NCBI RefSeq assembly: GCF_002797325.1
Contig: NZ_KZ454938.1
Span: forward strand, 2,740,267-2,804,266
Length of the DNA stretch: 64,000 nucleotides
Reading direction: 5' to 3'
DNA from: Bacillus sp. FJAT-45037
GTDB lineage: Bacteria > Bacillota > Bacilli > Bacillales > Bacillaceae_D
Part shown: piece by piece, positions 1 through 50,194 of the stretch
Layout: each line of letters begins with the position of its first letter
Numbering within the stretch: position 1 is the first letter of the stretch
Position numbers and translations under genes: made by a program
The notes under the pieces: model-generated
Seen by the model: only the letters and a program-made list of their open reading frames with translations
Databases searched by the model: none
Told to the model about the DNA's origin: nothing

Positions 1-103
1 TTTGCGCGGAAATAGGCTGAGTTTGCGCGAAAACAGCTCTTGTTCGCGCGGAAATGACGTCGATATGCGCGCAAACGTCCTCTATTCGCGCAAAACCGAC
101 TCC
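1..103 (+). repeat. 21-bp-period GCGCG array 1 (5 units)
   Basis: Five units of exactly 21 bases each start with TTTGCGCGGAAA or a close variant (TTTGCGCGAAA, TTCGCGCGGAAA, TATGCGCGCAAA, TTCGCGCAAAA) followed by about nine variable bases. The window edge cuts off whatever precedes it. The array lies in the non-coding stretch upstream of the HTH gene at 312. It is one of eleven copies in the window. Function unknown. Confidence 0.85.
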
Positions 104-15433: not shown

Positions 15434-15515
15434 CTTGCGCGGAAATGGCCATAATTTGCGCGAAAATAGCTGCCGTTTGCGCGAAAATGACCGTGATCTG
15501 CGCGAAAACCTCTAT
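15434..15515 (+). repeat. 21-bp-period GCGCG array 3 (4 units)
   Basis: Four 21-base units: CTTGCGCGGAAA, TTTGCGCGAAAA, TTTGCGCGAAAA and TCTGCGCGAAAA. The leader TTTTCCATTTTCTTGAAGC resembles that of the other arrays. It lies between the catalase and a minus-strand gene remnant. Confidence 0.85.
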
Positions 15516-32022: not shown

Positions 32023-32118
32023 GAAATGCGGTGGATTCGCGCGGAAACATGTGCTTTGTGCGCGGAAATGAGTGGGATTTGCGCGGAAACGAGGTGAATT
32101 CGCGCGAAACCGCTCCCT
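32023..32118 (+). repeat. 21-bp-period array 4, right part
   Basis: After the target duplication, units continue with TTCGCGCGGAAA, TGTGCGCGGAAA, TTTGCGCGGAAA and TTCGCGCGAAAC. Unit 4 (TTTGCGCGGAAACGAGGTGA) matches unit 4 of array 5 (TTTGCGCGGAAACGAGGAGA). Confidence 0.85.
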
Positions 32119-34526: not shown

Positions 34527-34626
34527 TTTGCGCGAAAATGTGGTCGATTCGCGCGGAAACCGGTACTTTATGCGCGGAAGCTTGTTTAATTTGCGCGGAA
34601 ACGAGGAGATTTCGCGCGGAAGTGCC
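34527..34626 (+). repeat. 21-bp-period GCGCG array 5 (5 units)
   Basis: Units TTTGCGCGAAAA, TTCGCGCGGAAA, TATGCGCGGAAG, TTTGCGCGGAAA and TTCGCGCGGAAG at exact 21-base spacing. The leader TTTCCAAATTATTGAAGCG precedes it. It lies between the promoters of galU and the terminator of the pro-peptide gene. Confidence 0.88.
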
Positions 34627-34660
34627 TCCTCTCTCCTATTTCTAACTGAAAAAAATAAAA

Positions 34661-34682
34661 AATCCTCTTAGAAAAGAGGATT
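34661..34682 (-). terminator. terminator of the pro-peptide gene
   Basis: A perfect 9-bp stem AATCCTCTT/AAGAGGATT with a 4-base loop; on the minus strand it is followed by a long T-rich run. It starts 14 bases past the pro-peptide stop. Confidence 0.8.
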
Positions 34683-34695
34683 TCTTATTGAATGC

Positions 34696-34812
34696 TTATC
34701 CGTGTACGTATTCAGGGGGGCCATTCGGTGTAAAAACATCACTAGAATATGCTGAAACTGGTGTAGCGAGTAGAAAAGTTAAGACCAATCCACATATAAT
34801 AATTTTTTTCAA
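34696..34812 (-). CDS. 38-residue secreted pro-peptide, candidate quorum-sensing signal
   Basis: A short gene with an excellent ribosome site (AAAGGAGG, 9 bases before a TTG start) and its own promoter and terminator. It encodes MKKIIICGLVLTFLLATPVS as a signal peptide (predicted cut after A21), then YSSDVFTPNGPPEYVHG. It is divergent from a PlcR-like TPR regulator 173 bases away. PapR, NprX and Phr peptides have the same plan: an export signal, then a short tail whose last 5-10 residues are the signal. By analogy the active form would be near PPEYVHG. It has no similarity I recognise to known signals, so the role is inference from size, export and neighbour. Confidence 0.75.
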   Translation of the reverse strand: MKKIIICGLVLTFLLATPVSAYSSDVFTPNGPPEYVHG

Positions 34813-34852
34813 AATATTCTACCTCCTTTTGCGTTTAAATTATTTATAGCAT

Positions 34853-34880
34853 ATTATATAGATCCATGCATTACTTGAAA
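34853..34880 (-). promoter_or_regulatory. likely sigma-A promoter of the pro-peptide gene
   Basis: On the minus strand TTTCAA (34880-34875) and TATAAT (34858-34853) are separated by 16 bases, 41 bases before the TTG start. Confidence 0.55.
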
Positions 34881-34942
34881 TAGAGATTCTGTGGTAGTCT
34901 CATCATGATTACTAGGTTAAAAGTCTCATTTCCATACAAAAG

Positions 34943-34958
34943 TATGAACATATGAATA
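34943..34958. promoter_or_regulatory. PlcR-box-like sequence in the divergent intergenic region
   Basis: TATGAACATATGAATA differs at one fixed position from the Bacillus cereus PlcR box TATGNANNNNTNCATA (AATA instead of CATA). It lies 28 bases upstream of the regulator start. It may be the site of autoregulation, but AT-rich DNA gives such matches by chance. Confidence 0.4.
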
Positions 34959-34985
34959 CATCTCATTTTTTTGGAGGGTTGATTG

Positions 34986-35867
34986 ATGGATTATTCAATA
35001 GGTGAACGTATTAAAGACTTAAGGGAACATTTAAAGATGTCTCAAAAAGATCTGTGTAAAAACATTTGTACTCAAGGGCTAATCAGTAGAATAGAACGCA
35101 GTACGACCATTCCAACTGCTCCATTACTCCATCAATTAGCTTTGCGACTCGGTGTCGATCTAAATTATTTTTTTGATGACATATCTCGTAACGGGATCAA
35201 CTATGTTCAAGAAGTGAAGCTAACGATTAACAAACTCATTCATTCCCATGACTATCATGAAATCATGAAAATCGTTCAACTCGAAAAGAAAAATCCACTA
35301 TTTCGAGAGTCGCACCTTCAACAGTACTTACTTTGGAGAGAAGGCATCTGTATCTATCATTTAGAAAAGGATAGTGAAAAAGCTCTTTCTTTTTTAGATA
35401 AAGCATTACAAGTGAGACCCGGTACTAACCATACATTAACTGAAATAGAAGTAGATATATTAGCTTCTAAAGCCATTGTCTTCAGTAAGATAAACGATCT
35501 TGGACAAGCCGCTGCCATCTACGAACACATTTTTCGTAAAATCGGCTCATTCCCAAACTTTAAAAACAAACGATTGCTCATCCGTGTTCTTTATAATGCT
35601 AGCCGCAATGCTTTTGATAGACAAAACTACAAGGAATCCCTTTCTTATGCAGACAAAGCTTTAAATATTTGCATAGAAGAAGAGCATCTTTATTTACTAG
35701 GGAATCTATTTTACTTAAAAGGATGCACGTTGTTTCGTCATGACCGAACACAAAAAGCAACTAGTTTAAAGTTATTACATCATGCATGGCAAATCTATCA
35801 ATTAAACCCTATACCTGTTCTGATAAATAGTTTAGAAGAAGAAATCGCCTATGTAAGGACCTCTTAA
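34986..35867 (+). CDS. PlcR-like HTH-TPR transcriptional regulator (RRNPP family)
   Basis: A 293-residue protein with an N-terminal HTH_3 domain (residues 5-62) and a C-terminal array of tetratricopeptide-like helices (about 75-285). It aligns along its length with B. cereus PlcR: QKDLCKNICTQGLISRIE with QKQLSENICHQSEVSRIE, LQQYLLWREG with FQQFLQWQYY, and LYNASRNAFDRQNYKESLSY with RYNHAKALYLDSRYEESLYQ. RRNPP regulators bind re-imported signal peptides through the TPR groove and then switch DNA binding. The start is ATG 34986, 8 bases after GGAGG. It is divergent from a secreted pro-peptide gene and upstream of two subtilisin genes, which fits a density-controlled protease switch. Confidence 0.88.
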   Translation: MDYSIGERIKDLREHLKMSQKDLCKNICTQGLISRIERSTTIPTAPLLHQLALRLGVDLNYFFDDISRNGINYVQEVKLTINKLIHSHDYHEIMKIVQLEKKNPLFRESHLQQYLLWREGICIYHLEKDSEKALSFLDKALQVRPGTNHTLTEIEVDILASKAIVFSKINDLGQAAAIYEHIFRKIGSFPNFKNKRLLIRVLYNASRNAFDRQNYKESLSYADKALNICIEEEHLYLLGNLFYLKGCTLFRHDRTQKATSLKLLHHAWQIYQLNPIPVLINSLEEEIAYVRTS

Positions 35868-35913
35868 TACTATAGTTAAATATTGTATATGAACAAGTTA
35901 ATATCACTATGTA

Positions 35914-35959
35914 AATAAAGAAGGTAACGAACGATTGATGGTTCGTTATCTTCTTTATT
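35914..35959. terminator. hairpin terminator after the regulator
   Basis: A 19-bp stem, AATAAAGAAGGTAACGAAC with GTTCGTTATCTTCTTTATT (one G-U), and an 8-base loop. It separates the regulator from the first subtilisin, which must have its own promoter in 35960-36040. Confidence 0.8.
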
Positions 35960-36050
35960 GTGTAAGCTTGTCCATTTTCAAGGTTAGAATATTCTGTCTA
36001 TTAATCCTACAATGTGAGTGTAGTACTACTATATTCGAGGGGGTTGTTAT

Positions 36051-37151
36051 ATGAAGGGTATGAAGGTTACTGGTTTGTTGCTTGGTCTTGTGTTGGCGGT
36101 TGTGTTTGTGTTCTCTACTTTATCAGTGAGTGCGAATGGTAAAGGTGTGGAGCGCGTTGAGTATTTGATTGGGTTCCATGAAAAAGCGAATAAAGATGAG
36201 GTCAATCAAGCAGGCGGAGAAGTGGTTCATGAGTTTACATACATGCCTGTGCTTCAAGTGAAAATTCCTGAGCGAGCGGCTAAAGCTCTTGAAAACAATC
36301 CGAATATCGCATTTGTTGAAAAGAATGAAGAGGTAACTGCTACTCAAACGGTACCATGGGGAATCACTCATATTAAAGCTCCGACTGTTCATAGCTGGGG
36401 CAATCGTGGGGGCGGCGTGAAAGTAGCTATCCTTGATACAGGTGTCGCGAATCATCCTGACTTACAAATTTCTGGTGGGGCAAGCTTTATTGGCTCTGAA
36501 CCATCTTATCAAGATTTAAATGGGCACGGTACGCATGTTGCTGGTACAGTTGCGGCGTTAAACAATAGTTATGGTGTGCTTGGTGTGGCTCCTTCTTCAA
36601 GTATTTATGCGGTCAAAGTGTTAGATCGTAACGGTGGTGGTTCTCACGCGAGTATCGCTCAAGGCATTGAGTGGTCGATTAGCAATGGGATGGACATTGT
36701 GAACATGAGTTTAGGTGGGCCTACGGGTTCGAATACGCTAAAGCAAGCTGTCGATAATGCGTACAATCTTGGCGTTTTACTAGTCGCTGCTTCTGGGAAC
36801 ACAGGAACAGCTGGCATTCAATTCCCAGCTCGCTACAACACGGTCATGGCTGTAGGCGCGGTTGATTCACGCAATCGTCTAGCTTCATTCTCCACTTTCG
36901 GAAATGAACAAGAAATTGTCGCTCCAGGCGTCAACGTACAAAGTACGCATTTATCAAATGGTTATGTGTCTCTAAACGGAACATCGATGGCTAGCCCACA
37001 CGTCGCTGGTGCTGCTGCTCTTGTGAAGAGTGAGTACCCTTGGGCAACGAATGCTCAAATCAGACAACGATTAAATGACACAACGACTCCTCTTGGCAAC
37101 GCGTATTACTTTGGAAACGGTCTTGTCGACGCATCTAGAGCGGCTTATTAA
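36051..37151 (+). CDS. aprE: extracellular alkaline subtilisin
   Basis: A 366-residue preproprotease. Signal peptide 1-29; pro-region about 30-97 with the inhibitor I9 fold; mature enzyme about 269 residues starting near QTVPWGITHIKAP. The triad is Asp129 (VAILDTGV), His159 (NGHGTHVAGT) and Ser312 (NGTSMASPHVAG), with the oxyanion Asn250. The mature length and IKAPTVHSWGNRG start are those of high-alkaline subtilisins (Savinase type), shorter than the 274-275 of neutral subtilisins. GAGGGGG is 7 bases before ATG. A second subtilisin follows after 43 bases without a terminator. Regulation by the nearby PlcR-like system is plausible but not shown. Confidence 0.95.
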   Translation: MKGMKVTGLLLGLVLAVVFVFSTLSVSANGKGVERVEYLIGFHEKANKDEVNQAGGEVVHEFTYMPVLQVKIPERAAKALENNPNIAFVEKNEEVTATQTVPWGITHIKAPTVHSWGNRGGGVKVAILDTGVANHPDLQISGGASFIGSEPSYQDLNGHGTHVAGTVAALNNSYGVLGVAPSSSIYAVKVLDRNGGGSHASIAQGIEWSISNGMDIVNMSLGGPTGSNTLKQAVDNAYNLGVLLVAASGNTGTAGIQFPARYNTVMAVGAVDSRNRLASFSTFGNEQEIVAPGVNVQSTHLSNGYVSLNGTSMASPHVAGAAALVKSEYPWATNAQIRQRLNDTTTPLGNAYYFGNGLVDASRAAY

Positions 37152-37194: not shown

Positions 37195-38331
37195 TTGAAA
37201 AGAATAGTTGTCTCTTGGTTAATCATGGCTCTCATCTTAATTCCGTCGATCGCCTTTGCTTACGACGGGAACGGGAAAGAGCAACGTTCGGACTACCTCG
37301 TAATGTTCGATGGTCCTGCAAACAAAGGATTATTTAAAGCCTTTGGTGTTCAAGATCAGGATATTATTCATGAGTATGATCTACTTGATGTGGTACAGCT
37401 GAATTTAACGACAAATCAAGCTACGGCTCTCAAAAATCACCCTCAGATTAAGTTTGTCGAGGAAAATGCCGAAGTATCCGCTTATGGACAAGCTGTTCCA
37501 TGGGGTGTACCTCATGTGCAAGGAACAGCAGGACATGACTTAGGTTTTACAGGGAATGGTGTGAAAGTAGCGATTTTAGACACGGGGATTGACAATACTC
37601 ATGAAGATTTAGCGGCAAATGTAAAAGGCGGGCATTCTGTATTTACTGATGCGGCTAACCTTGACCCTTTTTATGACGAAGATGGTCATGGTACGCATGT
37701 TGCTGGAACGGTAGCAGCGATCAATAACGACTTAGGCGTTCTTGGTGTGGCTCATCAAGCCGATCTTTATGCGGTAAAAGTATTAAATAATAGCGGAAGT
37801 GGCTCGTATGCTGGGATTGCAGCAGGCATTGAGTGGGCAATTCAAAACGACATGGATATTGTAAATATGAGCTTAGGTGGCTCTCAAAGCTCTGCAATTT
37901 TAAAAGAGTTTTGTGATCTTGCATATGCAGAAGGTCTTCTAGTCGTTGCGGCGGCAGGTAATGAAGGGAACCGAGGTGGCAATAACGACACCGTCGGCTA
38001 CCCTGCAAAATACGATTCCGTCATCGCCGTAGCAGCTGTTGATCAAAACAATAATCGTCCGACTTTTTCTAGTACAGGACCAGCAGTTGAATTGGCGGCC
38101 CCAGGTGCAAACATTTTAAGCACAACTCCAAATAACAGATATGCTGCTTATAATGGAACATCTATGGCCTCCCCTCACGTTGCTGGAGTTGCAGCACAAA
38201 TTTTAGAGGCTAAACCAACCTTATCAAATGTAGAAGTGCGAGAACTTCTTCGACTTTCTGCAAAGGATTTAGGTAACAGTAGACAGTTCGGATACGGCTT
38301 AGTTCAGACAGTCGACGCAATTCAATATTAA
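37195..38331 (+). CDS. second extracellular subtilisin-like protease
   Basis: A 378-residue preproprotease. Signal peptide 1-22; I9-type pro-region about 30-98; mature part from near AVPWGVPHVQ. Triad: Asp129 (VAILDTGI), His165 (DGHGTHVAGT) and Ser323 (NGTSMASPHVAG), with Asn256. Compared with the preceding protease, it has an insert near VFTDAANLDPFYDEDG and a free Cys240, so the two are old duplicates or separate acquisitions. The start is TTG behind GAGGAGTGAG. Same operon as the first subtilisin. The product is probably secreted and processed by itself. Confidence 0.93.
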   Translation: MKRIVVSWLIMALILIPSIAFAYDGNGKEQRSDYLVMFDGPANKGLFKAFGVQDQDIIHEYDLLDVVQLNLTTNQATALKNHPQIKFVEENAEVSAYGQAVPWGVPHVQGTAGHDLGFTGNGVKVAILDTGIDNTHEDLAANVKGGHSVFTDAANLDPFYDEDGHGTHVAGTVAAINNDLGVLGVAHQADLYAVKVLNNSGSGSYAGIAAGIEWAIQNDMDIVNMSLGGSQSSAILKEFCDLAYAEGLLVVAAAGNEGNRGGNNDTVGYPAKYDSVIAVAAVDQNNNRPTFSSTGPAVELAAPGANILSTTPNNRYAAYNGTSMASPHVAGVAAQILEAKPTLSNVEVRELLRLSAKDLGNSRQFGYGLVQTVDAIQY

Positions 38332-42295: not shown

Positions 42296-42396
42296 TTTGC
42301 GCGGAAATCGAGTCAGTTCGCGCGAAAGTGTGATCGATTTGCGCGGAACAGTAACTTATTTGCGCGAAAACATGACCAATTCGCGCGGTAACGATT
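42296..42396 (+). repeat. 21-bp-period GCGCG array 7 (5 units)
   Basis: Units TTTGCGCGGAAA, TTCGCGCGAAAG, TTTGCGCGGAAC, TTTGCGCGAAAA and TTCGCGCGGTAA. The leader TTTCCAGTTTTTTGCTGCA precedes it. Its final unit (TTCGCGCGGTAACGATT) is shared with array 8, so the two are close relatives. Confidence 0.88.
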
Positions 42397-50094: not shown

Positions 50095-50194
50095 GGCGTT
50101 TCCGCGCATATAAGGTAAGAAATCGCGCAAAATGATTCGGTTTCCGCGCGAGACTCTCCTCTTTTCGCGCGAATCAACGCCATTTCCGCGCAAA
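50095..50194 (-). repeat. 21-bp-period GCGCG array 10 (5 units, reversed)
   Basis: On the minus strand: TTTGCGCGGAAA, TTCGCGCGAAAA, CTCGCGCGGAAA, TTTGCGCGATTT and TATGCGCGGAAA. It starts 5 bases after the hmp stop and precedes the hmp terminator, so it is part of the hmp transcript, in antisense orientation. Confidence 0.87.

Follow-up and report, generated by a model that had tools for sequence, protein, structure and literature searches.

A short gene that is divergent from a putative regulator, with two subtilisin genes behind the regulator, raises the question whether regulator and short gene product form a receptor-pheromone pair and whether such a pair controls the proteases. The window, i.e. 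the whole stretch of 64,000 nucleotides analysed here, apparently from an alkaliphilic relative of Bacillus, contains this arrangement (Table 1), for which the initial annotation had proposed a quorum-sensing pair of the PlcR/PapR type. Our analysis favours a PlcR/PapR-type quorum-sensing pair with protease output, to which we assign a probability of about 75%; the sequences suggest that the pair might count cells and switch on the neighbouring subtilisins.

Table 1. Features of the cassette, in coordinates of the window.
Feature	Position	Strand	Remarks
Intrinsic terminator of the peptide gene	34654-34689	minus	16-pair stem, loop of 4, T-rich tail
Pro-peptide gene	34696-34812	minus	38 codons, signal sequence and tail
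Probable extended -10 of the peptide promoter	34842-34853	minus	TATGCTATAAAT, by eye
Operator-like palindrome TATGAACATATGAATA	34943-34958		candidate; 130 nt before the start codon of the peptide gene
PlcR-like receptor	34986-35867	plus	293 aa, N-terminal HTH and TPR domain
Second operator-like palindrome TATGAACAAGTTAATA	35888-35903		candidate; 147 nt upstream of the first subtilisin
Subtilisin 1	36051-37151	plus	nearest solved structures of the Savinase/M-protease class
Subtilisin 2	37195-38331	plus	BPN' class by nearest solved structures

The receptor matches the Pfam families RNPP_C (76.2 bits) and HTH_3 (39.3 bits), both above the cut-off. Its best match in the PDB is PlcR, with 6e-16 by phmmer and 4e-48 by a family profile covering positions 1-293, and the best fold matches of its AlphaFold2 model (pLDDT 92) are 2qfc, 3u3w and 4fsc, all PlcR. 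Profile and predicted fold both rank PlcR first, which bears out the earlier description of an HTH-TPR regulator similar to PlcR over its full length. The combination of HTH, TPR and RNPP_C, with PlcR as the closest solved structure along the whole chain, is that of the PlcR subfamily. A scan of genome contigs with the receptor as query found no relative. In collections of plasmids (42 records with a relative) and phages (6 records), all relatives stayed below 60% identity.

The opposing small open reading frame was confirmed together with its ribosome site (Shine-Dalgarno sequence AAAGGAGGT; MKKIIICGLVLTFLLATPVSAYSSDVFTPNGPPEYVHG); its start codon is TTG, not ATG. The product is predicted from sequence features to be exported, and its C-terminus, about PPEYVHG, is the predicted signal. 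The gene had also been credited with its own terminator and promoter. The former is one of two terminator-like sites found in 34600-36100 compared with 0.5 from shuffled sequences. The latter was not reported by a generic sigma-70 scan, and is supported by an extended -10 of the type TRTGnnATAA, which by eye is common to seven aligned ortholog peptide promoters; no good or recognisable -35 was seen by eye in these seven. As a separate observation, TGCGCGGAAA units form dispersed arrays with a spacing of 21 bp or multiples thereof at window positions 3-75, 15436-15508, 32038-32089, 34529-34601, 42298-42370 and 50099-50192, one of them just past the peptide terminator; matches with at most one mismatch number 32 in the window versus 4.4 expected.

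Orthologous pairs were sought by searching the receptor in 41 genomes of the family (match at 1e-25 in 16) and in 397 genomes of the order (match at 1e-46 in 74). The nearest receptors (47-63% identity, n=7) are those of genomes G306, G403, G366 and G011, two of genome G181 (G181:C6 and G181:C46) and one of genome G126 (G126:C26). Seven distinct rows including the window's receptor form a set in the tree with a support of 100/99; G403, being more than 90% identical to G306, was left out of the tree and the distinct sets. The initial annotation had named as adverse signs a peptide gene that is absent or frameshifted in relatives and a tail that is unconstrained while the signal sequence is not. 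Instead, an intact, divergent pro-peptide gene stands beside the orthologous receptor in all eight loci, the window included, with a gap of 118-232 bp between the two genes, and the tail is the most conserved part of its product. Mean pairwise identities for the four closest distinct peptides are 0.26 in the signal sequence, 0.33 in the middle and 0.79 in the tail (last 7 residues), and for all seven distinct peptides 0.28, 0.35 and 0.62, respectively, with the G403 peptide again dropped as nearly identical to that of G306. The tails read PPEYVHG in the window, PPEYTHG in G306 and G403, PPRYTHG in G366, PPPDYVHG in G011, GPPYIHG in G181:C6, KPPYIHSD in G126 and KPGYVHSD in G181:C46.

A search of the 397 genomes with the 38-residue peptide alone returned, after itself, G306 (3e-5), G403 (1e-4) and G366 (6e-4), then an unrelated frame of G262 (0.003, fourth) and G181:C6 (0.013, fifth). 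Apart from the G262 frame, each of these matches is the divergent neighbour of an orthologous receptor, an agreement beyond chance. Co-occurrence of receptor and peptide, as suggested for verification in the initial annotation, was found in 8/8 loci, whereas the co-variation suggested along with it did not single out the tail. The plain correlation of receptor and peptide distances was dropped as a test because it is equal for the core (0.45) and the signal sequence (0.46) and is hence uninformative.

The wider group of PlcR-like receptors comprises 113 loci (four listed places left out), of which 94 are distinct at 90% identity. An exported small open reading frame lies within 350 bp of 67 of these 94 receptors; the two zones of 350 bp that follow yield 13 and 11. 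For frames with a C-terminal core of the [LP]P-x-x-H type, the counts in the three successive zones are 56, 2 and 0, the core pattern having been chosen after the first loci were viewed. The PapR-like core L/P-P-x-x-H is common to the group. A residue beyond the His is present in 21 of the 56 peptides, predominantly within that portion of the tree to which the window belongs. These data bear on a rival explanation in which the small frame is spurious or encodes an unrelated secreted peptide, e.g. a bacteriocin, and the regulator answers to something else. It could draw on the 27 of 94 related receptors for which a strict filter finds no exported small frame within 350 bp; this filter also misses plausible peptides, e.g. 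at loci L015, L016, L041, L008 and L011. However, the retention of the gene in all eight orthologs with the tail as its most constrained part, and the frequency of core-bearing neighbours in the group, render this explanation extremely improbable.

The initial annotation had further emphasized that the arrangement differs from that of plcR-papR. While the divergent order indeed holds for all eight orthologs, it is not unusual, and the idea that it is peculiar to the window's locus was rejected: it is the commonest order among the 56 pairs (38 divergent, 10 convergent, 8 downstream and co-directional). A tree of 58 receptors, including the manually added L008 and L011 with their repeat peptides, shows 3 changes of arrangement compared with at least 15 in 200 shuffles. 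Variations on the pair were also observed. A second PlcR-like receptor on the window genome's own plasmid-like contig G000:C2 (124.5 kb; L002, 1069-2352) has a downstream pro-peptide with three tandem copies of a YNIPGHHS-type unit, and the OppA-like gene (454-aa frame) ca. 4 kb away possibly encodes a pheromone binder. At L008, L009 and L013, from the window's genus, subtilisin and PlcR-like receptor flank a gene that encodes DLPHAG five times in tandem, and at L086, L094 and L124 each receptor has two divergent pro-peptide genes, one encoding numerous tandem ELPPIHM units and the second just one ELPSIH.

The group also allows peptide and receptor residues to be compared. A Lys at PlcR position 89 occurs in all four receptors whose peptide has a Glu before the His but only in 5 of the 52 others (Fisher 3.4e-4, kinship ignored), and position 89 is the most specific of the 57 columns in which these four receptors share a residue. 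Because the Glu before the His arose only about twice on the tree, this association is no more than suggestive. For acidic residues at position 237, no significant link emerged (p 0.12). PlcR residue 89 is a candidate determinant of peptide discrimination.

A PlcR-box-like palindrome of 16 bp is common to the divergent regions of the clade (consensus TATTAAYATRTTAATA). Its copy in the window ends 27 nt before the receptor ATG, deviates by one mismatch from TATGNANNNNTNCATA and corresponds to the near-match to the PlcR box previously noted between the two genes. With a matrix built without the window's own locus, the two best sites of the entire 64 kb are this divergent box (score 16.2) and the site between receptor and subtilisin (13.7), 0.1 of each being expected. 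Likewise, the two best sites of L125, L126, L127, L128 and L130 are the divergent box and a site between receptor and subtilisin, and in L129 and L131, where no subtilisin adjoins the receptor, the divergent box ranks first. The box of G306 (and G403) remains in the leave-one-out matrix through an identical box in G126. Strong extra sites outside the cassette were found in L127 (14.8) and L131 (17.3). The distance from the divergent box to the peptide start codon is 120-131 nt in 8/8 orthologs, whereas that to the called start of the receptor ranges from -18 to 86 nt.

A box also precedes the linked subtilisins in six of six cases, 109-173 nt upstream of the called start and with scores of 12.6-23.8 (matrix built solely on divergent sites, including that of the locus itself); the start of the G011 subtilisin is uncertain, and the distances for G306 and G403 are given 2 nt too long. 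Upstream regions of other mechanically called reading frames in the same loci (n=117) reach 10.3 in 5% of the cases and 14.9 at maximum. Of four unlinked subtilisins of receptor-bearing genomes, three have the palindrome at a distance of 150-195 nt, in one case as a weak site. The scores are 16.7 at 195 nt for the second of G126, 12.6 at 188 nt for the second of G011 and 9.7 at 150 nt for the first of G126, a value reached by 6% of the 117 controls. The second subtilisin of G181 has no convincing site (5.6 at 205 nt, reached by 13% of the controls). Nine control genes, consisting of three other S8 genes and six subtilisins from genomes without the ortholog, score at most 5.8 in eight cases; the exception is a subtilisin of G026, which has no orthologous receptor (10.2 at 188 nt). 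The weak and the unconvincing site before unlinked subtilisins, the G026 score and the extra sites of L127 and L131 weigh against the proposed output. This operator-like palindrome, shared by linked and unlinked genes, strengthens the initial guess that the subtilisins are targets, and they are very probably direct targets of the receptor. As a side observation, the box-poor second subtilisin of G181 is followed by another PlcR-like receptor (L165, 2381-3265; 326 bits with the family profile), as if control had changed hands.

The box itself departs from that of Bacillus cereus, in which G4, the symmetric partner of C13, was not replaceable when one half-site was mutated (PMC2464732). The window's two boxes each deviate in a single half-site (A in place of C at position 13); in the clade consensus both half-sites are changed, at G4 and C13, with T at position 4. 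The PlcR box TATGnAnnnnTnCATA as such was not found upstream of the proposed targets, the window's boxes having one mismatch each; the genome contains five exact PlcR boxes, none in the cassette. Exact PlcR boxes do precede the receptors of L051, L052 and L012, whose peptides end in LPFEH/LPYEH (3/94 versus 0.1 expected).

Subtilisin 2 starts 43 bp after subtilisin 1, and both are probably co-transcribed. Homologues of subtilisin 1 (72-78%) directly follow the receptor in G306, G403, G011 and G181:C46; subtilisin 2 occupies the same place in the order of G306 and G403, and a 58% homologue alone follows the receptor in G366. Altogether, a subtilisin is found directly after the receptor in six of eight loci, two in the window, G306 and G403 and one in G366, G011 and G181:C46. 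Since the seven genomes contain 7-14 S8 matches each, subtilisin neighbours are not expected by chance; shared descent presumably explains part of this adjacency. The pair might nonetheless be a genuine quorum-sensing system and the subtilisins passengers that synteny retains beside it, outside its control. In favour of this view one could adduce G181:C6 and G126:C26, the two orthologs without a subtilisin next to the receptor. We consider it very unlikely, as the palindrome reappears, similarly spaced, upstream of the linked subtilisins and of the unlinked ones of G011 and G126, and the cassette persists while its outer flanks differ between genera (G306 and G403, from one genus, share theirs).

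Across the genome, exact TATKAAYAWRTKAATA occurs four times in 3.37 Mb, twice in the cassette, once 213 nt upstream of a membrane-protein-like reading frame (by eye) and once between convergent frames. Allowing one mismatch, 22 matches were listed on both strands compared with 9 in the control (places inspected: L175, L178 and L180), and three mismatches to TATTAACATATTAATA gave no excess (128 versus 144). A broad regulon is not supported, although the excess at one mismatch leaves room for it; the predicted regulon is small, a few further targets being possible, and the protease output looks mainly local. In the wider group, a subtilisin lies within 1.5 kb of 13 of the 94 distinct receptors, and of 8 of the 87 outside the window's clade. 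Separately, larger HTH-TPR receptors or fragments that by eye are NprR-like adjoin subtilisins in 7 of 30 subtilisin loci examined (L138, L140, L142, L150, L153, L157 and L162), two of them having HTH and TPR but no RNPP_C by Pfam.

By analogy with PlcR-PapR, we propose the following scenario: The 38-residue pro-peptide would be exported by the Sec route and trimmed outside the cell, leaving as signal a short C-terminal piece that includes PPEYVHG. This signal would be imported by an oligopeptide permease (the genome has seven SBP_bac_5 genes) and then bind to the TPR groove of the receptor. Bound to the 16-bp palindrome ca. 130 nt upstream of the peptide start, the receptor dimer would exert positive feedback on the signal, and on the palindrome ca. 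150 nt upstream of the subtilisin start it would generate the output. Since the divergent box abuts or overlaps the 5' leader of the receptor gene, its occupation might also lower the synthesis of the receptor. The box keeps a constant spacing to the peptide gene, not to the receptor, and a similar one at the subtilisins, which suggests upstream activation of peptide gene and subtilisins alike.

The same pair might also work with the opposite sign, the receptor being a TprA-like repressor from which the imported peptide frees the subtilisins and the peptide gene. TprA is a repressor, and PlcR-family relatives can repress. A PlcR-family pair on opposite strands is known from TprA2/PhrA2 (PMC5436883), and an overlap or contact of the divergent box with the receptor leader would suit a repressor as well. 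However, in the window the end of the box is separated from the likely -10 (by eye) by 89 nt at the peptide gene and by 104 nt at the subtilisin, a poor position for steric repression, and the peptide promoters possess an extended -10 without a good -35. Promoters of this kind are often activated ones. We therefore regard repression as unlikely and favour activation by the peptide-bound receptor.

A further-reaching possibility is a self-reinforcing switch, in which the subtilisin would be both the output and the trimmer of the pro-peptide, so that protease, signal and receptor would make up one extracellular cassette with positive feedback and its own box specificity, and in which PlcR-like and NprR-like receptors would have been coupled repeatedly to subtilisins within the order. 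It is raised because of the cassette itself, the 8 of 87 other receptors near subtilisins and the precedents of AprE/Phr and NprB/PapR, and we put it forward only tentatively, with more doubt than confidence. Extracellular proteases including AprE have been postulated to mature Phr peptides (PMC11343458); the window's subtilisins might mature the pro-peptide in a similar way.

The locus represents a compact circuit of one receptor, one short peptide, one palindrome and two proteases. High-alkaline subtilisins are major industrial enzymes, and the subtilisin class is used in detergents. Titles and abstract openings of the publications screened mentioned neither a PlcR-like pair that governs subtilisins of alkaliphiles nor a density control of high-alkaline subtilisin genes in these organisms. 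Large-scale catalogues of RRNPP pairs, a PlcR cluster among them, exist (PMC10075063, PMC12700828, PMC9765709, PMC11343458), and the window's pair may be listed in their supplements or figures. The group as a whole, with dozens of receptor-peptide pairs of one core and clade-specific tails, should be useful for studying how receptors discriminate signals.

Three known systems invite comparison. NprR-NprX also comprises an HTH-TPR receptor tied to secreted protease control, a link predicted for the window too. NprR has a longer TPR domain and belongs to another subfamily, whereas the window's receptor matches RNPP_C and, along its entire chain, PlcR. Streptococcus pneumoniae has TprA/PhrA and TprA2/PhrA2; in the latter, a PlcR-family regulator and a small peptide gene occupy opposite strands, as in the window, but its signal is VDLGLAD and lanthionine-peptide genes adjoin it (PMC5436883), in place of the subtilisins and the P-P-x-Y-x-H-G tail found here.

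The closest relationship is that to PlcR-PapR of the B. cereus group, with which the window's pair shares the full-length receptor match and predicted fold, a 16-bp palindrome as operator (putative in the window) and an adjacent pro-peptide, exported by sequence features, with a constrained C-terminus as predicted signal. The PapR7 forms SDLPFEH and KDLPFEY (PMC10017872) share the L-P-x-x-H/Y core. Linkage to a protease gene is likewise common to both, nprB there and subtilisins here; NprB matures PapR, and nprB is often linked to plcR (PMC10017872). In contrast, papR lies downstream and co-directional, while the peptide gene is divergent throughout the window's clade. Relative to the PapR core L-P-F-E-F/Y/H, PPEYVHG keeps P and H but has P for L, an extra residue before the Tyr and a terminal G after the His. 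The PapR Glu contacts PlcR Lys89, Gln237 and Tyr275 (PMC6568020); the window's receptor lacks a Lys at the position of Lys89 (His88). The clade box has the half-site TATT instead of TATG, and the regulon, predicted to be small with perhaps a few further targets, would differ from the broad PlcR regulon with its secreted proteins. Compared with PlcR-PapR, the pair is a variant with an altered box, an extended tail and a probable, mainly local protease output.
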